Shown here: piece after piece, positions 421 through 12,633 of the stretch
Layout of the letters: each line of letters starts with the position of its first letter
Position numbering within the stretch: the first letter of the stretch is position 1
Assembly: GCA_946482295.1 (NCBI GenBank)
Contig: CAMLRB010000101.1
Coordinates: 1 to 12,633, forward strand
DNA: 12,633 nt
Source of the DNA: an uncultured Bacteriovorax sp.
GTDB lineage: Bacteria > Bdellovibrionota > Bacteriovoracia > Bacteriovoracales > Bacteriovoracaceae
Direction of reading: 5' to 3'
Position numbers and translations under genes: made by a program
Notes under the pieces: model-generated
The model's database searches: none
The model's input: only the letters and a program-made list of their open reading frames with translations
What the model was told of the DNA's origin: nothing

Positions 421-1158
421 GTGATTTGTCTTATCCTCCACTTCTTTTTAACAGCTACTTTTGCTGCTGATTTAAAAATCAATGCTCACGACTATCCTCC
501 TTTTAGTTATCTAGAAAATAATAAGTTGAAAGGAGCGATGGTCGAAATCATTCAAGAGATTTGTAAAATCACTAAAGATAATTGCATCATTGAATATGTT
601 CCACTAAAGCGAAACCTTCAGTATCTAGAAGCAGGAACAATTCACGGAGTAATGAGTCTCGTTCAAAGCGATACGAGAGATAAATTTGCCACTTTTTCAG
701 ATCCTATTATTTATTCTGATTTAATCTATGCTTCGACAATAAATAGCCCTGTTCTTACATCGGAAAAAGATTTGAACGGATATAGGGTAGGAGCTGTTTT
801 AGGATCAGCTTCCTCAGCAATGGCTGAACAACAATTAAAAAATGTTGGAGGTAAAGGAGTCGTAGAAATCGAAGTTAACCCAAATATTATGGTTAAAAAA
901 ATTTCTAGTGGAAAATATGGGGAGAAGGGGGCTATCGCTGGAAGCGAAGATGTCATTAGCTATTACTCTAAACTGAATGGACTACCACCTTTAATTAGAA
1001 TATTCACACTTCGAAAAGATGCCTTTGGGGTTTATTTTTCAAAAAAAGTTGTTAGTCAAAAAAGCATTGATAATTTCAATTCCGCCATCAAACAACTAAG
1101 AGAACAAAATAAAATTCAACCTATCTTAAAAAAATACAACATTATCAAAACATATTAA
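421..1158 (+). CDS. Periplasmic solute-binding protein, family 3 (amino-acid type), orphan
   Basis: This 245-aa protein has the layout of bacterial extracellular solute-binding proteins of family 3 (SBP_bac_3), which bind amino acids or similar small molecules for ABC transporters or act as free sensors. A short signal peptide (residues 1-15, cut near TFA-AD) is followed by the hallmark start of the domain, INAHDYPPFSY, then KGAMVEIIQEI, a GVMSL...RDKFATFSDPI segment and the second-lobe start GYRVGAVLGSAS. The length matches a single SBP domain with no fused enzyme. No permease or ATPase gene is adjacent, so it is an orphan; the ligand cannot be inferred. The start is GTG at 421, 2 nt after the previous stop, with only a weak GTGAG ribosome site inside that gene, so translation is probably coupled. 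It ends convergently with the next gene, overlapping by 4 nt. Confidence 0.88.
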   Translation: MICLILHFFLTATFAADLKINAHDYPPFSYLENNKLKGAMVEIIQEICKITKDNCIIEYVPLKRNLQYLEAGTIHGVMSLVQSDTRDKFATFSDPIIYSDLIYASTINSPVLTSEKDLNGYRVGAVLGSASSAMAEQQLKNVGGKGVVEIEVNPNIMVKKISSGKYGEKGAIAGSEDVISYYSKLNGLPPLIRIFTLRKDAFGVYFSKKVVSQKSIDNFNSAIKQLREQNKIQPILKKYNIIKTY

Positions 1159-2182: not shown

Positions 2183-3655
2183 TTATCTTGGTAGGGGTAA
2201 TTCAATGGTGAAGCAAGTCGTGGAAAACTTCTCATTATAATAAATGTCACCACCATGATCAGTGATCATGCGATGAACGAGACTGAGTCCTAAACCAGTT
2301 CCTTTCCCAATATCTTTAGTAGTAAAGAACGGTAAGAATATTTTTTGTCGGAGATCTGGAGATATCCCACCACCAGAATCAATAACATTTACTACCAACC
2401 GATCGTTTTTTACAAATGCCTCAATTTTAATCCATTTTTCCTTTTGATCAAGGATGGCATCAAATGAGTTATTGAGTAGATTTAAAAAAACCTGGGAGAG
2501 TTGAACTTGTCTACAATGAATTTTTTCACTAAATGCTGGATGATCTAAATCGCAAATGAGTTTAATGTCATGACTTTTAAATCTCTCATCACATAATGAT
2601 AAAACATCCGTTAAAATAGTTTTTAGTGTAACGAAATCAGGTTTTTCACTAGTAGCATCGCGAGAAATATTTTTTAGACCTTTAACAATATTTTTAATTC
2701 TCTCTACGGTTGTAGAAATGGCCTTTGTCGATTTGATGAATTGTTCTTGATTGGTTGATCCTTTTTCAACCATGCGTTCAAGCAATTGTGTATGAGAATG
2801 AATGATAGCTAGTGGATTGTTAATTTCATGTGCAACACCACCCGCCATTTCCCCTAAAGCGACAAGCTTTGAGTTGTTGATGGCATTCATCTGTTGCATT
2901 TCAATTTTCTTTTCTTGTTCAGATATCTTGCTTTCTTTTTCGATATTGAGTGTATTGATCTGCTCGATCATTTTATTAATTGCATCTTGAAGAATGTCGA
3001 ACTCGTCACGAGTCATCGATTTTCTTTTGATTGAAAGATATTTATTGTTTACAGAGTCGAGATCAAAAATCTTAGTGAATGAAATTATCTGTTCAATATT
3101 TTTGTTAATGTAATGGTGGAAAATGAGCAAGATGATCCATGAAAGTAGAAATGTTTTGAAGAATTGAGCTATAACAAAGTAAATGATTCTATTGTAGAGA
3201 GCAGATTTAATTTCAGTGGTACTAGCTACAATTTCGACATTTCCTATATATTCCATTTTTGCACTGTTATAGTGCTGATGATGTAGGGGATACTCGTAAA
3301 ACATTAAATCATTTTGATCTGAGCCATCTGTTTCTGGGTTTGTTCTTTCGATGATGACGCGTTTCTTTGGATCTGTGACTTTAACTGAAACAATGTCTTT
3401 GATTTTAACAATACTTTCGACAAGGACTGTTAGGTAGACTTTATCCACATTCCAAACAGCGCTGTTAATGGCCGGAACTGAAGATTCGTTGATCTGTTGG
3501 AGCTTGACTCTTAAAGATCCTATTTCAGAATTATATTCGATGTAAAAATTGAGGAAAATAACAAGTGATGTGAGTACAGTACTGATAATGAGTACTGCAA
3601 ACAAGAGTTTAGCCTTTATGGGCCTAAATATTTTCTTGTCTGCCATATTCTCCAT
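2183..3655 (-). CDS. Membrane histidine kinase with periplasmic sensor domain
   Basis: This 490-aa sensor kinase has a first membrane helix at about residues 17-38, a periplasmic domain at 39-155, a second helix at about 157-180, and a cytoplasmic linker with a coiled coil (235-262). The periplasmic part contains [16 protein letters not shown], then a helix and KDIVSVKV, resembling the small Cache/CHASE-like sensors where a conserved Trp precedes an acidic residue (hedged match). The kinase core has the H box [15 protein letters not shown] with H276 as the phosphoacceptor, the N box around NLLNNSFDA (392-400), the D-box DSGGGI (426-431), the F-box FLPFF and the G2 box GKGTGLGL (450-457). There is no receiver domain, so it needs an external partner. 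It starts 13 bp after the preceding kinase gene. ATG 3655 is chosen because GAGG lies 11 nt upstream; ATG 3646 is possible but its GGAG is only 3 nt away. Confidence 0.93.
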
Positions 3656-3668
3656 TTACCAGATTGCC

Positions 3669-5741
3669 TCATGTTTGCATTTCGAGCTCTGCCTTTTTTG
3701 GTAATGTTACACTGAAGCATGAGCCTTCCCCTACTTCTGACACTATTCCAATTGTTCCTCGATGACCTTCAATGATTTGTTTTACAATGAACAGACCGAG
3801 GCCTAAGCCGCCGATGCTATTATTATTACTTACTCTTTCAAAACGGTCAAAGATTGTGTCCAATTTATTGGCCGGAATTCCCTTGCCAAAATCTTTCACT
3901 GAAATTCTAACATTTGGACCATCATCCATGACCTTTAATTCAATTTTTCCAGGTGCATATTTGATGGCATTAGTGATGAGATTGATGAAAACCTGTTCTA
4001 TCCGCGTTTTATCCCAATTGGCCAGTATACCAGGTGCGATATCAGCCTTCAAAGTACATTCGTATGTCGCCAGGAGTTCAGAATGGCGTTCCACGATTTC
4101 ATTTGCCATATCAGACACATTTACTGGACCATAGTTGAATACAAATTTCCCCGATTGGATGTGAGAGACATCCAGAAGAACTTGAATGAGCGTTATAAGG
4201 CGATTGACTTGGCTTATTGATGCATCAATTGATTTACGAAATTTCCCAAGAGCTGCTGAATTCTCTTTAGTCGATTGAAGAGATTTGCCAATTAACTGCA
4301 AGTGCAATTTTAATGAAGTTATAGGTGTATTGAGTTCATGTGAAGCAATCGAAAGAAATTGATTGCGAGTTTCGATAGCTTGCTGTGAAAGAAGGTAATG
4401 TTTAGCATTGAGAAATGACATCGCTAAACGGCGACCAATTTCTTTTCCAAGCTCTGTGTAATGATTATCGAATTTTCTTCCTGATTCAAAACTATAAAAT
4501 GTCAGTACTCCCACGAGATCGCCATGGGCATAGAGCGGAAGAACGAGTGAAGAGGTTTCTGAAAGCTCTTCTGCTAAATCATTTTGTTCTTCATCGAGGT
4601 CAGAATTTTTCTTAATGGCAGATCCAATTTTTTCAAAAACGTTTTCCTTTTTTCCATCTAGAGCTTTTTTCTGAGGCTGCAGACTGTTTGGATGACCTTT
4701 AATTAATCGATCAAGTTTTTTTATCCTTTCATTGTTTTTTTCCTCTCGATGATAGCAAATAACATTCTCTAATTGTCCGTTTGGCAAAACATTATCAAAT
4801 GTGCACCAGTCGCCCATGAACGGAATGGCATCGCGAACGAAATTTTCAAGCAAAGTTTTCTGATCGAGTGTCGTGATAAGTGTTTCACCAATTGTCGCAA
4901 GAAATTTATTAGTCTCTTCAGTTTGTTTTCTTTCTTGAATATCAGTCGCAGTACCTAACCACGTCATAATGCCCATATTCCCATAATTCTCAGGATGAAT
5001 TCGAATGAGATGCCAGCGAAATGTTCCATTCCTATCGAGAAGTCGGCACTCAACTTCTTGAGGAAGATGACTATTATTTTTTTCGAACAGCTCTAAAACC
5101 TGACGATGATCACCAGGATGAATAATCATTGTCCAGTCTTGAATGACGTTTTCTTCTAGCCCAGTATATTCGTACCAAATCTTGTTGAAATAGAGTCCTG
5201 CTCCGTTGGCATCTACACGAAAGACGATTTGGGGAATGGAGTCTGCAAGGTAACGGTAACGTTTTAAACTTTCGATTTCCAAATTGGCCATCGCCATTGC
5301 GTGGAGACTCAATTCGTTCTCAATAAGTTTTTGGCCCTGCTGCTTAATTAAAAGTTTCTTGCGATAGATATCAACAAAGACAGCAACTTTAGATTTTAGA
5401 ATATAAGGATCAAAAGGTTTGAGAAGATAATCAACGGCTCCAGCGTCATAGCCTTGATAAACATACATTTCATCTTGGTTAATGGCAGACATGAAGATGA
5501 TAGGGATGTCTCGAGACTTTTCACGCGTCTTTATAATCGCAGCTGTCTCAAAGCCATTAATAATCGGCATCTGTACGTCGAGCAAAATGACGGCAAAATC
5601 CATAGAAAGAAGATGCCTTAAGGCCTCCTGTCCTGAAAATGCCGTCACCAGATTATAGTCCGGAGAGTCGAGGACCGCTCGAACTGCCAAAAGGCCTTCC
5701 TCACGATCATCGACGACTAGAATGTTTATTTTATCAGTCAC
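3669..5741 (-). CDS. REC-PAS-GAF hybrid histidine kinase
   Basis: This 690-aa protein lacks membrane helices and should be cytoplasmic. Residues 4-125 form a receiver domain with acidic pair D11/D12, phosphoacceptor D55 (LLDVQMP) and K108 (LLKPF). A PAS domain follows at about 158-272 (YLADSIPQIVFRVD ... GTATDIQERK, with its PAC end), then a GAF-like domain at about 278-447 with a charged insertion around 335-395. The HisKA segment starts near 458, with H468 in IASHELNTPI, and HATPase_c spans about 570-682, with N587/N591 (NLITNAIKYA), DFGKGIP at 617 and GGLGLGL at 644. All catalytic residues look intact. An N-terminal receiver suggests kinase activity controlled by phosphorylation from another kinase, plausibly the upstream poly-HAMP kinase. 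The start is GTG; its G is also the last base of the preceding TAG stop, so translation is probably coupled. Confidence 0.94.
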   Translation of the reverse strand: MTDKINILVVDDREEGLLAVRAVLDSPDYNLVTAFSGQEALRHLLSMDFAVILLDVQMPIINGFETAAIIKTREKSRDIPIIFMSAINQDEMYVYQGYDAGAVDYLLKPFDPYILKSKVAVFVDIYRKKLLIKQQGQKLIENELSLHAMAMANLEIESLKRYRYLADSIPQIVFRVDANGAGLYFNKIWYEYTGLEENVIQDWTMIIHPGDHRQVLELFEKNNSHLPQEVECRLLDRNGTFRWHLIRIHPENYGNMGIMTWLGTATDIQERKQTEETNKFLATIGETLITTLDQKTLLENFVRDAIPFMGDWCTFDNVLPNGQLENVICYHREEKNNERIKKLDRLIKGHPNSLQPQKKALDGKKENVFEKIGSAIKKNSDLDEEQNDLAEELSETSSLVLPLYAHGDLVGVLTFYSFESGRKFDNHYTELGKEIGRRLAMSFLNAKHYLLSQQAIETRNQFLSIASHELNTPITSLKLHLQLIGKSLQSTKENSAALGKFRKSIDASISQVNRLITLIQVLLDVSHIQSGKFVFNYGPVNVSDMANEIVERHSELLATYECTLKADIAPGILANWDKTRIEQVFINLITNAIKYAPGKIELKVMDDGPNVRISVKDFGKGIPANKLDTIFDRFERVSNNNSIGGLGLGLFIVKQIIEGHRGTIGIVSEVGEGSCFSVTLPKKAELEMQT

Positions 5742-5743
5742 TA
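5739..5743 (-). other. TAGTG stop/start overlap between two kinase genes
   Basis: Read on the minus strand, the TAG stop of the poly-HAMP kinase (5743-5741) shares its last G with the GTG start of the next kinase (5741-5739). Only a weak GGA lies upstream, so reinitiation by the terminating ribosome is the likely mode of translation. Confidence 0.8.
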
Positions 5744-8700
5744 TTGAAGTTCCGTTTGATCAGGGTTCATCCATTTATGCATTGTCGCAAGAAGATAATC
5801 ATTATCCACTGGTTTCGTGATATAATCAGAAGCACCAGCAGCTAGAGATTTCTCTTTGTCACCTTTCATCGCTTTAGCGGTTAAAGTAATGATTGGAAGA
5901 TCTTTGAACTGCTCCATCTTTCTGATTTCCTGTGTAGCTTCAATACCACCCATTTCTGGCATCATAACGTCCATTAGGATCATATCGACATCAGGATTTT
6001 CTTTTAGTTTGTCGATTCCTTGTTTTCCGTTTTCTGCATAAATGACTTCCATTCCTTGTCTTTCAAGAATAACTGTCGTTGCAAAGATATTTCTCATGTC
6101 ATCATCAATGAGGAGTACTTTTTTCGATTTAAAATCCGCATTTCGTGGAAGGGGAGTATAGTCCACATCGTTTTCTGGTGCTGATTCAATAACACCTTCC
6201 TGACTGACGTAACGAAGTGGAAGGTTGAGAATGAATGTTGAGCCTTGGCCAGGTGATGACACAACTTCAATGCTACCACCAAGAAGTTTGGCAATCTGAC
6301 GAGAAATTGTAAGGCCAAGTCCAGTTCCTCCGTATTTTCTGTTTGTCGTACCATCTGCTTGTTGAAAGGCTTCGAAAATCATCTGCTGTTTTTCTTTCGG
6401 TATTCCGATACCAGTATCGATGACTGAGAAGACAATTGATTTTTCATCGCGGATTTTACCAGCACTAATTTTCAGAGTGACTTTACCTTTCTCTGTGAAC
6501 TTGAATGCATTTGAAAGAAGATTTTTTAAGATCTGTTGAACTCGATTTACGTCTGTGTTGATCATATTGTTTGCAATTTCTGAATCTGATTCAATCACAA
6601 ATTGCAATCCTTTATGAGAAGCGACTGGACGGAAACTGTGTTCTAAGTATTCACAAATTTCTGGAACTTTCACGTCGCGAGGGATGATCGGCATTTTACC
6701 AGCTTCAACTTTAGAGAGATCGAGAATCTCATTGATAAGAGCTAGTAGGTCACACCCTGATGAGTAAATCGTTTGCGCAAACTTAGTTTGTTCTTTTGTA
6801 AGGTTTTGTTCTTTATTTTCAGAAAGCATTTTCGAAAGAATCAACAAGCTATTAAGTGGAGTTCTAAGTTCGTGTGACATGTTTGCAAGGAACTCTGACT
6901 TATATTTCGAAATGAGTGAAAGCTGTTCTGCTTTTTCTTCAACGGAGTGGGAAGCAAGCTCGACTTCTTGGTTTTTAATCTCAAGAAGTTTTGCTTTTTC
7001 TTCAAGCTCTTTTGCTTGTGCTTCAAGTTCAGCGTTCGATTTTTTTAGTTCTTGAAGAAGTTCTTCTGTTCGCATTGTAGAGGCGATCATGTTGAGTACA
7101 ACTCCAATCGATGTCATTAGCTGATCAAGAAAGTTCAGGTAGTTCGGAGTGAAGGCGTGAATTGAAGCAAGTTCGATAACGGCCTTAACTTTACCTTCGA
7201 AGATAATTGGAAGGACAATAATGTTTACCGGTTTAACCTCTCCAAGGCTCGAAGCAACAGCAACGTAATCAGACGGAGCATTTGTAAGCAAAATACGTTT
7301 TTTCTCGAATGCTGCCTGACCAATCAAACTTTCCTTTAGACGATATGAGTTTTTGAAATTTTTTCTTTCAGTGAATGCGTAACTTGCAAGAAGCGAAAGT
7401 ACTGGCTCATCAAATTCATGGTCCATGATGAAGAATGTACCTTGTTGAGCACCAATCAACGGAGTTAACTCCGACATGATCATTTGAGCAACTGATGTAA
7501 TTGAACGCTGACCTTGCATCATGTTCGCAAATTTCGCGAGGTTGGTCTTTAACCAGTCCTGCTCATGGTTTTTATCAGTGGTATCTTTTAAGTTTCCAAT
7601 CATCTGGTTGATGTTGTCTTTTAGAGCGGCAACCTCTCCTTGCGCTTCTACCTGAATAGACTGAGAAAGATCTCCGCGTGTAACCGCAGTCGAAACTTCC
7701 GCAATCGCTCGGATCTGAGTTGTAAGGTTACCTGCGAGCTGGTTTACGTTATCAGTTAAGTCTTTCCATGTACCAGCAGCACCCGGAACCTTTGCCTGAC
7801 CACCCAGCTTACCTTCGATACCTACCTCTCTCGCAGTAGTTGTTACCTGATCCGCGAAAGTTCTTAGTGTATCGGTCATCGAGTTAATTGTTTCTGCAAG
7901 GGCCGCAACCTCTCCCTTTGCTTCTAGGACGAATTTCTGATTCAAGTCACCGTTTGCAACCGCGGTAACAACTTTAACGATACCACGTACCTGAGTCGTA
8001 AGATTTGAGGCCATGAAGTTTACGTTGTCGGTTAGATCTTTCCACGTACCAGCAACCCCCGGAACGTGTGCCTGAGCTCCTAGTTTTCCTTCGATACCTA
8101 CCTCGCGAGCAACGGTTGATACCTGATCCGCGAATGTTCTTAGTGTGTCTGTCATCGAGTTAATTGTTTCTGCCAGAGCAGCAACCTCACCCTTAGACTC
8201 AATTACGAATTTTTGATTCAAGTCACCGTTTGCTACCGCGGTTACGACTTTAACGATACCACGTACCTGCTTAGTTAAGTTACCGGCCATGAAATTTACG
8301 TTGTCGGTTAGATCTTTCCACGTACCCGAAACACCTTTTACATCTGCCTGACCACCTAGCTTTCCTTCGGTACCTACTTCCTTCGCAACACGAGTAACCT
8401 CGGCAGCAAATGAGTTCAGCTGATCCACCATGACGTTGATCGTATTTTTTAGTTCAAGGATCTCTCCCTTTGCATCTACGGTAATTTTTTGTGACAAGTC
8501 TCCCTTCGCAACGGCCGTTGTAACCTTTGCAATGTTACGAACCTGATCCGTTAAGTTTCCGGCGAGAACGTTTACGTTATCAGTTAGATCTTTCCACGTA
8601 CCAGAAACACCCTTTACATCTGCCTGACCACCAAGTTTACCTTCAGTACCTACCTCTTTCGCAACACGAGTAACCTCCGCCGCAAATGAGTTCAGCTGAT

Positions 8701-11194
8701 CCACCATGATGTTGATTGTTTGTTTTAGTTCAAGGATCTCTCCCTTTGCATCTACGGTAATTTTCTGTGACAAGTCTCCCTTTGCAACGGCAGTTGTAAC
8801 TTTAGCGATGTTACGAACCTGATCCGTTAAGTTTCCAGCGAGACCGTTTACGTTATCGGTTAGATCCTTCCAAGTTCCAGAAACACCTTTTACATCGGCC
8901 TGACCACCAAGTTTTCCTTCTGTACCTACCTCTTTCGCAACACGGGTAACCTCCGCCGCAAATGAGTTCAGCTGATCCACCATGACGTTGATCGTATTTT
9001 TTAGTTCGTAAATTTCTCCACGAGCATCTACGGTAATTTTCTGTGACAAGTCTCCGTTGGCAACCGCAGTTGTAACTTTAGCGATGTTACGTACCTGGTC
9101 CGTTAAGTTTCCGGCGAGAACGTTTACGTTATCAGTTAGATCTTTCCACGTACCAGAAACACCCTTTACATCTGCCTGACCACCAAGTTTACCTTCAGTA
9201 CCTACCTCTTTCGCAACACGAGTAACCTCCGCCGCAAATGAGTTCAGCTGATCCACCATGATGTTGATCGTATTTTTTAATTCAAGGATCTCTCCCTTAG
9301 CATCGACGGTAATTTTCTGTGACAAGTCTCCCTTCGCAACGGCAGTTGTTACCTTGGCGATGTTACGTACCTGCGCGGTTAGATTTCCAGCGAGGCCATT
9401 TACGTTGTCGGTTAGATCTTTCCACGTACCCGAAACCCCTTTTACATCTGCCTGACCACCTAGTTTTCCTTCTGTACCTACTTCCTTCGCAACACGAGTT
9501 ACCTCGGCAGCGAATGAGTTCAGCTGATCCACCATGATGTTGATCGTATTTTTAAGCTCAAAGATTTCTCCCTTCGCATCTACCGTAATTTTTTGTGACA
9601 AGTCTCCGTTGGCTACCGCTGTTGTAACTTTAGCAATGTTACGTACCTGCGCGGTTAGATTTCCAGCTAGACCATTTACGTTGTCGGTTAGATCTTTCCA
9701 CGTACCCGAAACACCCTTAACCTCGGCCTGACCACCTAGTTTTCCTTCAGTACCTACTTCCTTCGCAACACGGGTAACCTCCGCCGCAAATGAGTTCAGC
9801 TGATCCACCATGATGTTGATTGTGTTTTTAAGCTCCAGGATCTCTCCCTTAGCATCTACTGTAATTTTCTGTGACAAGTCTCCCTTCGCAACTGCCGTCG
9901 TAACCTTGGCGATGTTACGTACCTGTGCGGTTAGATTTCCGGCGAGACCGTTTACGTTATCGGTTAGATCTTTCCACGTACCAGAAACCCCTTTAACATC
10001 GGCTTGACCGCCCAGCTTACCTTCGGAACCTACCTCCTTCGCAACACGGGTAACCTCCGCTGAGAATGAACGGAGGGTATCAACCATCGTGTTGATCGTT
10101 TGTTTTAGTTCAAGGATCTCTCCGCGGGCATCAACCGTAATTTTTTGTGACAAGTCTCCGTTGGCTACCGCTGTTGTAACTTTAGCAATGTTACGTACCT
10201 GAGCTGTTAGATTGTTCGCTAGTCCGTTTACGTTGTCGGTTAGATCTTTCCAAGTACCCGAAACACCCTTTACATCCGCCTGACCACCTAGACGTCCTTC
10301 TGTACCTACTTCCTTCGCAACACGGGTAACCTCAGCAGCGAACGACGAAAGCTGATCCACCATGACGTTAATCGTAGTTTTTAGTTCGTAAATTTCACCT
10401 TTGGCATCTACGGTAATTTTCTGAGACAAGTCTCCCTTTGCAACGGCAGTTGTAACTTTAGCAATGTTACGTACCTGATCCGTTAAGTTACCAGCGAGAA
10501 CGTTTACGTTATCTGTGAGATCTTTCCACGTTCCACTAACTCCCTTTACATCGGCCTGACCACCAAGCTTTCCTTCTGTACCTACCTCTTTCGCCACACG
10601 AGTTACCTCGGAAGCAAATGAGTTCAGCTGATCAACCATCGTATTTACCGTCATACCGATACGAGCAAATTCCCCGTTGAGCTGACGCCCATCAATCTCA
10701 AGAGTCATCTTTTGAGAAAGGTCACCTTTCGCAACCGATGTGATAACTCGGGCAGCTTCTGTAATTGGCTGAACTAGATCGGATATAACGGTGTTAACTG
10801 AATCAACGTTTGTGAGCCACGCACCTTTAACAGATCCGATGGAAACACGTTCGTTCATCTTTCCTTCTTTACCTACGATGCGACCAACGCGAGTAAACTC
10901 ATTGGCCATATTAAGATTGAGTTCATTTATGTCGTTGAGAACTTCAGCGATATCACCAATGACTGAATCGTTTTCCATATTTAAACGAACAGTAAAATCA
11001 CCACTACGAATGGCCTTAACCATAAGGAGAATTTCTTTTAGCTGTTCTTTCTCACTCACCAATTTTGGCGTACGTGTAGTTGTTGAAGGAATTTTACTCT
11101 TAACTTTTTTCTCCAGAGTAGGAGTCGGTGTATTCATTCCAGGCGTAATCGCGAGAGGCTTTGCTTTTCGTGATCCAGTCGATTTTGTCTTCAC
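5741..11194 (-). CDS. Giant soluble poly-HAMP hybrid histidine kinase (Nik1/group III-like)
   Basis: This protein has 1817 aa from the GTG at 11194 (a TTG at 11236 would add 14 but has no ribosome site). After a basic Thr/Pro-rich leader (1-46) comes a poly-HAMP region (about 48-1201): two diverged units, then eleven copies of a 92-aa repeat carrying [11 protein letters not shown] and GDLSQKI. Then follow a GAF-like domain (1226-1376), a coiled coil (1380-1428), HisKA with H1441 ([11 protein letters not shown]), HATPase_c (1541-1661; N1562, DTGIGIP at 1593, GGTGLGL at 1622) and a C-terminal receiver (1691-1811; D1697/D1698, phosphoacceptor D1742, K1794). No membrane helix is seen. The repeat matches the poly-HAMP of fungal group III hybrid kinases (Nik1/Os-1), which signal osmotic and related stress, but those have about five or six repeats. 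The stimulus here is unknown. It is first gene of the kinase operon. Confidence 0.95.
7592..11053 (-). repeat. Tandem poly-HAMP array, exact 276-bp period
   Basis: The codons for the GTWKDL motif end on the plus strand at 10534, 10258, 9982, 9706, 9430, 9154, 8878, 8602, 8326, 8050 and 7774: eleven copies exactly 276 bp (92 aa) apart. Each unit pairs a canonical HAMP (GDLSQK type) with a diverged one ([11 protein letters not shown] type). Two diverged units precede them; the nearer (KGAWLTNV) lies 97 aa upstream because of a 5-residue insertion near DGRQLNGEF. Three zones are visible: units 1-8 (8327-10534) are nearly identical; units 9-10 (7775-8326) carry FMAxNLT, GIVKVV and [23 protein letters not shown]; unit 11 ([11 protein letters not shown]) leads into the GAF domain. 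Confidence 0.95.
9582..10201 (-). repeat. 68-bp identical blocks 552 bp apart (units 2 and 4)
   Basis: Positions 9582-9649 and 10134-10201 are identical over 68 bp and lie exactly two repeat units (552 bp) apart. The corresponding block of the unit between them (from about 9858) differs at many positions, most of them silent. Both identical blocks encode the VANGDLSQK version of the motif, the middle one VAKGDLSQK. Confidence 0.9.
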
Positions 11195-11203
11195 TCGTTT
11201 TTT

Positions 11204-11210
11204 CTCCTTT
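11204..11210 (-). promoter_or_regulatory. Ribosome binding site supporting the GTG start at 11194
   Basis: The minus strand reads AAAGGAG with a 9-nt spacer (AAAAAACGA) before the GTG at 11194. The alternative upstream TTG at 11236 has nothing similar, and using it would place this ribosome site inside the coding region. Confidence 0.75.
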
Positions 11211-11258
11211 AAAGAAATCAGAAAATTTTTTTGCAATTGGCTTTATGAGTGCGGCGAT

Positions 11259-11665: not shown

Positions 11666-12633
11666 TCATAGGTGCTTTTTTAGTTTAAGAACAAATGAAA
11701 TTTTGTTTTCGTAAGGCTCATAGTAGAGGCTTCCACCATTTGCTTGAGCGAGAGTTTGAGAAATAGAGAGTCCTAAACCAGTGCCTTTTCCCAATGATTT
11801 TGTAGAAAAGAATGGCTCAAAAATACGTTTCACAATGTCCTGAGGCAGTAGCTGTCCAGAGTTTACCACTCGAATTTCTACCCAAGATTCTCTTTCTTTC
11901 ACAATGAGACATAGAATTTTCTCTTCGGATCGATCGCTCGCGAGTGCATCGAGAGCATTGCTCATCAAATTAATAATAATCTGTGAAATCTGCAACGGAT
12001 TACAAAAGACGTGAGGATTATAATTATTTTCGATCCTGAATTGAACTTTTTCAGTCTTAATTCGTTCTTCAAAAAGCCCAAGACTAATCTCAAGAATTTT
12101 TTCAACAGTTATGAGTTCACTTTCTAATTTATCATCTCTTCGTGAAACTAGTTTCATACTCCGGACAATCTTCGCAATCCTTTCACTAGCAGAGTGTATT
12201 TTGGCAAGTTTGTTAAGTGTGGCTTCGTCTAGTTTTTCATTGTTTTTCAAAAGAAGTGTGTTCGACAAACCTTGAATAATTGTGAGGGGATTATTGATTT
12301 CATGGGCCACGCCGCTCGCCATTTCTCCAAGCGAGGAGAGGCGAGAGGCGTGAAATGTTTTAATACTTTCTTCTTCAAGATTTTTTTTGCTTTGTGCGAG
12401 TTCCCCTAGCGATTTCTTGAGTTCGTACTCAACACCAATTCTTCTCTTTAGTTCATTGTAAACAGTGGAAGATTGTTTGAGGGTGTATATAAAATTAACA
12501 ACACTTAATGCAATTAAGAAAAGTGCATCGGTAGATTGTTGAGTTGCAGACAATCTCATAGCGAAGGAAATAATCGGCGCCAGCATCATTAGGTTAAAAG
12601 CAATGAGGACGATTCGTTTAGAGGATACTGTGA
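11666..12633 (-). CDS. Membrane histidine kinase, N-terminus beyond window edge
   Basis: At least 321 codons are visible. An internal ATG at 12589 could be taken as a start, but the frame is open to the window edge (TVSSKRIVLIAFNL precedes that Met) and a hydrophobic helix spans it, so the gene very probably begins outside. Two membrane helices are visible, about 12545-12615 and 12470-12530, then a coiled coil (YELKKSLGELAQSKKNLEEE). The core has [18 protein letters not shown] with the phosphoacceptor His codon at 12302-12304, the N box NLMSNALDAL, a D-box in the variant form NSGQLLP (Asp replaced by Asn, GxG lost), the F-box IFEPFFSTK and the G2 box GKGTGLGLS. No receiver domain is present. 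The core resembles that of the membrane kinase at 2183-3655. It is upstream of the poly-HAMP operon on the same strand but separated by about 470 bp. Confidence 0.9.
   Translation of the reverse strand, partial: TVSSKRIVLIAFNLMMLAPIISFAMRLSATQQSTDALFLIALSVVNFIYTLKQSSTVYNELKRRIGVEYELKKSLGELAQSKKNLEEESIKTFHASRLSSLGEMASGVAHEINNPLTIIQGLSNTLLLKNNEKLDEATLNKLAKIHSASERIAKIVRSMKLVSRRDDKLESELITVEKILEISLGLFEERIKTEKVQFRIENNYNPHVFCNPLQISQIIINLMSNALDALASDRSEEKILCLIVKERESWVEIRVVNSGQLLPQDIVKRIFEPFFSTKSLGKGTGLGLSISQTLAQANGGSLYYEPYENKISFVLKLKKHL

Follow-up and report, generated by a model that had tools for sequence, protein, structure and literature searches.

The window analysed here, a stretch of 12,633 nucleotides (positions 1 to 12,633 of contig CAMLRB010000101.1, assembly GCA_946482295.1) from an uncultured Bacteriovorax sp., carries on its minus strand an open frame (5741-11236) that holds together a long array of HAMP domains and the output domains of a hybrid histidine kinase. 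This poly-HAMP kinase gene is directly followed by a second kinase gene, the poly-HAMP stop codon TAG and the GTG start of the partner overlapping by one base. We consider it probable (about 0.75) that the window thereby encodes a cytoplasmic two-protein phosphosignalling module, consisting of a poly-HAMP rod kinase and its overlapping REC-PAS-GAF partner. The features of the two genes, with the evidence for each in brackets, are as follows.

5741..11194, minus strand: poly-HAMP hybrid histidine kinase gene, 1817 amino acids (list of open reading frames, Pfam domains)
11048..11194, minus strand: basic N-terminal tail of 49 residues, 12 of them Lys or Arg, net charge +10, without a Pfam domain (charge count, Pfam)
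7574..11047, minus strand: array of 25 HAMPs in 13 profile units (unit profile, connector motifs)
10529..10813, minus strand: second unit of the array, 97 residues, with a HAMP connector longer by 5 residues; a conserved landmark (step lengths in the family)
8321..10528, minus strand: eight near-identical 92-residue di-HAMP units, 86-99% amino-acid identity (unit profile, motif spacing)
7574..8320, minus strand: two units, 90% alike, then the truncated last unit (unit profile)
7094..7507, minus strand: GAF domain, GAF_2 (Pfam)
6698..6901, minus strand: HisKA, with the His within SHELRTP (Pfam, motif)
6212..6553, minus strand: HATPase_c (Pfam)
5783..6118, minus strand: receiver domain, with the Asp within ILMDVMMP (Pfam, motif)
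3669..5741, minus strand: partner REC-PAS-GAF-HisKA-HATPase protein, 690 amino acids, GTG start (list of open reading frames, Pfam, motifs)

The GTG at 11194, which has AAAGGAG ahead of it, is probably the true start of the poly-HAMP gene and gives the protein of 1817 residues; a longer version starting from the TTG at 11236 is possible. Pfam recognises 12 HAMP and 12 HAMP_2 stretches in the 1817-residue protein, followed by GAF_2, HisKA, HATPase_c and Response_reg, and the output has its His, N-box and Asp motifs. By hydropathy alone, in windows of 19 residues, no clear membrane segment was seen: a single window reaches 1.6 (the maximum, 1.70, lying within the GAF domain), compared with 20 in the neighbouring membrane kinase with a CHASE5 domain, employed as a positive control. 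The domains, motifs and hydropathy all agree with an earlier, sequence-only reading of this DNA, which had described a soluble hybrid kinase with GAF-HisKA-HATPase-REC output. The protein shows every feature of a poly-HAMP (group III-like) soluble hybrid kinase, namely a tandem of di-HAMPs of about 92 residues, HisKA-HATPase-REC with its His and Asp and, as judged from hydropathy only, no transmembrane region.

A profile made from ten of the units detects 13 in all, spanning residues 50-1207, and the array so delimited lies close to the 7592..11053 given by the sequence-only reading. Connector motifs count 13 canonical-type and 12 divergent-type HAMPs, which alternate as that reading had proposed. 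The motif GTWKDL occurs 11 times and all ten of the spacings are of 92 residues (276 bp), so that the claim of a long array held in exact register ten times in a row stands. The description as eleven 92-residue double-HAMP units plus two diverged ones is correct in its total of 13, but the second unit has 97 residues, an exception to the rhythm that the family conserves. The two units that follow the eight core units share 63-65% protein identity with the core, the figure for the last unit being 41-43%.

The length of the array was compared in three sets of relatives. A database search, with candidates limited to proteins of 0.55-1.75 times the query length, gave 7995 matches ranked by score; the same unit profile finds at least 13 units in 111 of the best 120 and more than 13 in 89, the ranking itself favouring long arrays. 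The second set comprised 80 loci picked via output domains, 49 of them with a countable array (17 were left out as having no open reading frame of at least three units, 13 as cut at the contig start and L014 as split). Here the range is 3 to 17 units, with at least 13 in 18/49 loci and more than 13 in 13/49; L036, with 16 units in one count and 15 in another, was entered as 15. The third set was drawn from 339 genomes of the phylum of G002, a Bdellovibrionaceae metagenome-assembled genome (MAG), 46 of which match at E <= 1e-150. Genes from 33 of the 46 were compared, 31 of them fetched (the first 20 mostly by score) together with L002 and L005; the window makes 34 rows, and without L138, L146 and L147, which are split or cut, 31 countable genes remain. 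An order-level search around G001, covering five genomes, gave no match at E 1e-100. Among the 31 phylum genes, window included, 18 have 13 units, four have 11, three have nine and two have 12, with single genes of 5, 7, 8 and 17 units.

The sequence-only reading had called the array unusually long, and had named beforehand relatives with an equal or greater number of units as the observation that would tell against it. Such relatives were found, with the same number in 18/31 phylum genes and more in 89 of the best 120 of the 7995 matches, and the claim has to be given up. These counts rule out uniqueness of the array length, which is typical for a family of soluble signalling kinases widespread among bacteria; the window holds a real, well-built array that is ordinary for its family. 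It is improbable, in our judgement, that the rod is exceptional in its length, with a precise unit count under special tuning in this organism. Thirteen is admittedly the commonest number in the phylum set, and in 30 of the 31 genes, where 606-639 residues follow the array, none has more than 13 units despite the partial homogenisation described below, so that the number may not drift freely. Arrays of more than 13 units are nevertheless common among the best database matches, and in a tree built from the output domains no fewer than eight gains or losses are required for the number 13, which is not clearly below the value for shuffled labels (mean 10.2, with 57 of 500 shuffles as low), so that clustering of 13 by descent is weak. 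On the same tree a 9-unit gene groups with two 13-unit genes (support 89/93), and a single clade for the number 13 is ruled out.

The phylum gene with 17 units, L143 (5138-12778, minus strand), has 973 residues after the array and lacks the basic tail.

Near-identical 276-bp repeats are easily collapsed in short-read assembly, and in three of the fetched relatives (L138, L146, L147) the gene is split or cut, so an artefactual repeat number has to be considered. The core units are, however, distinguishable, being 76-93% identical in DNA, and of the six relatives whose contigs exceed 3 Mb, five have 13 units and one has 7. These long-contig relatives rule out an assembly artefact as the main explanation; for the number 13 we take an artefact to be very improbable. 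Arrays of fewer than 13 units may still be collapsed ones where the assembly is fragmented. In L138 (4077-9298) and L147 (3863-6481) the poly-HAMP frame is split or shortened, through either an assembly error or a broken gene.

Phase is kept far more strictly than length. The first step between units is of 92 residues in 29 of the 31 phylum genes and 93 in two, the second is 97 in all 31, and every one of the 273 later steps is 92. Similarly, 1544 of 1668 steps in the best 120 of the 7995 database matches are of 92 residues, with 97 in 120, 93 in three and 95 in one. Since these steps are kept while the counts vary, the number differs by whole units, and there are signs that the rod alters its length solely in this way. 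The suggestion of the sequence-only reading that length or phase matters is thus favoured as regards phase, which is near invariant, and disfavoured as regards length, which runs from 5 to 17 units in 31 genes.

Units are also partly copied within genes, as indicated by codon agreement and by a tree of units. Where core units of the window share the amino acid at a site, their codon agreement is 0.673, compared with 0.415 expected from the codon use of the gene. Agreement of the window units with same-position units is 0.651 for L117, 0.608 for L118 and 0.520 for L119, and in 17/17 relatives with 13 units the agreement within the gene exceeds that with the same-position unit of the window. Positional memory is partly kept, the same-position value for L117 (0.651) standing above that over all unit pairs (0.617). 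In the unit tree, which covers 94 core units from 12 genes, the nearest neighbour lies in the same gene for 68, at the same position in another gene for 19 and in neither of these places for 7; in the window gene it lies in the same gene for four of the eight core units. Thirteen units in 18 genes despite such copying would fit gene conversion under some length constraint.

An AlphaFold2 model of residues 30-326 has helices of 31-33 residues, one starting every 45-50 residues, and in a fold search with this model the top three matches are the Aer2 poly-HAMP crystal structures 4i3m, 4i44 and 3lnr. By sequence, residues 47-329 match PDB entry 9trk_A and residues 42-237 match 9trj_A, both named 'histidine kinase,Gcn4p'; these entries are N-terminal fragments only, covering the array start including the 97-residue unit. 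They were absent from the fold-search matches (structure library to April 2026), and the literature search found no paper or source organism for them. Together with the Aer2 matches these entries indicate that the fold of the array is already known. The 25 HAMPs most likely stack into one dimeric helical rod, in which the 92-residue unit would comprise a canonical and a divergent HAMP whose helices continue into the next unit. With helices running unbroken between units, an insertion or deletion other than of whole units would break the helical phase. If each HAMP adds about 2.4 nm, as helix geometry suggests, the rod would be about 60 nm long. By analogy with the fungal kinase CaNik1, the rod probably biases the GAF-kinase-receiver output between two activity states, and the REC-PAS-GAF kinase of the overlapping gene may dock, or exchange phosphate, via its own receiver.

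Both the His and the Asp motif are found in the partner protein, and a gene of its kind recurs at the same place. A REC-first gene stands downstream in 19/20 fetched phylum relatives and upstream in 0/20. In 61 further loci, that is, those of the output-domain set with downstream room, mostly from other phyla, it stands downstream in 29 (26 long and 3 short; L002 and L005, among the 29, belong to the same phylum set) and upstream in 1/47. According to Pfam, Myxococcus, Hyalangium, Microvirga, Ramlibacter and an Acidobacteriaceae bacterium have loci with REC-first kinases that carry PAS or GAF. In Nonomuraea the partner consists of a receiver only, and a Myxococcaceae MAG and a Nostoc have CheR in that place. 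In more distant relatives the best-scoring match piece spans the REC-PAS half of the partner, which therefore seems to be its best conserved end.

Several observations weigh against the proposed two-protein module. One of the 20 relatives (L133) shows no REC-first partner; in 22 of the 61 further loci the downstream gene is neither REC-first nor CheR (two of them, L014 and L020, have split arrays), and another ten have a CheR-like gene there (L028, L031, L036, L039, L049, L051, L056, L058, L064, L069). The pairing is not obligatory. Pfam recognises no HPt or DNA-binding output in the window. The AlphaFold2 model is modest, a monomer only with a mean pLDDT (predicted local distance difference test) of 68.8, about 50-60 over the last 130 residues, and a weak second half; the fold match is weak, the best E value being 6.9e-3 (probability 1.00) and none falling below 1e-3. 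Lastly, a literature search found no experiment on a poly-HAMP kinase from this phylum.

The presence of CheR after a poly-HAMP kinase raises the question of methylation of the HAMP array.

Precedents for the two-protein module exist elsewhere. AskB (and AskA) of Myxococcus xanthus resemble the window kinase as extended poly-HAMP hybrid kinases, with a receiver-containing hybrid kinase gene directly downstream; in the accessible part of the report, AskC, whose gene directly follows askB, binds both AskA and AskB in vitro, and a two-hybrid test shows interaction between the receivers of AskA and AskC (PMC7643160). The Myxococcus loci L009, L012 and L013 show a poly-HAMP/REC-first pair, though none of them could be matched to an MXAN locus tag; the poly-HAMP protein in L012 has three receivers and the window kinase one. 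Ambruticin sensing is a trait of the Myxococcus system. OsaA, of the OsaA/OsaB pair of Streptomyces coelicolor (SCO5748/49), appears, in the available portion of a review, as a soluble hybrid kinase of 1829 residues with more than 10 HAMPs and a REC, and osaB adjoins osaA (PMC9739842). The likeness is of a soluble poly-HAMP hybrid kinase with a REC beside a response regulator gene. OsaB, however, is according to the same portion a receiver with a coiled coil, its gene having its own promoter, whereas the window partner is a 690-residue REC-PAS-GAF kinase whose start overlaps the preceding stop. Our literature searches, which were not aimed at this question alone and covered few subscription journals, turned up no paper that presents the pairing as a general feature.

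The fungal group III kinases CaNik1 and TcsC, in the parts of the reports at hand, likewise place 92-residue HAMP pairs ahead of HisKA-HATPase-REC. CaNik1 has nine HAMPs in such pairs and, when deprived of all of them, activates Hog1 with no stimulus needed (PMC3848655, in part). With its 25 HAMPs the window array is longer than this fungal version, as the sequence-only reading had said, and its 13 repeats compare with five to six in fungal group III. The fungal output follows directly after the array, whereas the window kinase has a GAF domain in between, and the fungal kinases feed the HOG pathway, the window protein being bacterial. The window kinase thus resembles Nik1 but is not fungal group III proper. 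Concatenated HAMPs in soluble receptors are also seen in Aer2 (poly-HAMP, the best fold match) and FrzCD (di-HAMP), both of which differ in having few HAMPs and a chemoreceptor signalling domain as output.

The basic tail suggests a different emphasis, in which it would be the targeting part and, like the tail of FrzCD, would use its charge to keep the kinase on DNA, with the rod as spacer and switch. Its net charge is positive in 30 of the 31 phylum genes though the letters vary (the exception is L143), and the first 50 residues have a net charge of at least +5 in 25/31 of these genes, compared with 11/115 other open reading frames of 21 loci. The available text on FrzCD has its basic tail, beside the di-HAMP, binding DNA by charge (PMC12077210), which makes tethering of the poly-HAMP kinase reasonable to propose and goes no further. 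Also in favour is the in vitro binding of promoter DNA by AskB of M. xanthus, but the accessible part of that report describes the binding as specific (PMC7643160), and charge alone does not give specificity. In TcsC, as far as its report was available, an N-terminal part with basic clusters is required for the osmotic response and for nuclear targeting (PMC11253588). Against the idea, the members listed from other phyla mostly have short, neutral or acidic first-50 tails, the paired Microvirga loci L019, L022 and L027 among them; basic ones occur in Myxococcota L013 (+10) and L011 (+7) and in Steroidobacter L075 (+9), with L007 weakly so (+3). The start codons behind the charge count follow a simple rule, which goes wrong in some rows (L012, L009), and membrane, RNA or a protein would be equally good candidates for what a basic tail binds. 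We regard charge-based holding on DNA as possible, though on balance unlikely. A more elaborate scheme appears doubtful: a nucleoid- or polyanion-tethered two-kinase switch, in which the charge-conserved tail would anchor the HAMP rod, length in this lineage would be held near 13 units while units are copied, the far end would offer the GAF kinase to the receiver kinase, and the 97-residue unit near the anchored end, as the only point at which the rhythm shifts, would be a candidate input switch.

DNA binding through a helix-turn-helix (HTH), as suggested for AskA/AskB, was rejected for the poly-HAMP kinase. HTH_6 scores 36.5 bits over the whole protein with no stretch passing alone, and the best match, from unit position 51 onwards, falls on a helix that the modelled units assign to HAMP; such fragments score only when summed over the repeats, on the HAMP-unit stretch.

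How a soluble kinase with an N-terminal half of stacked HAMPs receives its signal is an open question, also for the fungicide-targeted fungal kinases. Parts of this question become open to experiment through the comparison, with its near-invariant phase, its whole-unit differences in length and, in all proteins counted, one rhythm-breaking 97-residue unit near the N-terminus. For a protein class whose outputs are mostly unknown, the recurring REC-first neighbour provides a concrete candidate partner for assays. The second kinase gene, which overlaps the array gene and often goes with its relatives, and the signs of length change by whole units are the less expected aspects of the locus.

Three further genes lie in the window.

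2183-3655, minus strand: membrane CHASE5 histidine kinase, 13 bp past the partner gene
11666-12631, minus strand: histidine kinase with a hydrophobic N-terminus, cut by the window end
421-1158, plus strand (opposite to the module): family 3 solute-binding protein gene (Pfam)

The CHASE5 kinase was considered as a third member of the module and rejected, being the best match of no open reading frame in nine relative loci. A relative of the kinase at 11666-12631, of 53-56% identity, stands one open reading frame away upstream in L117 and L118.

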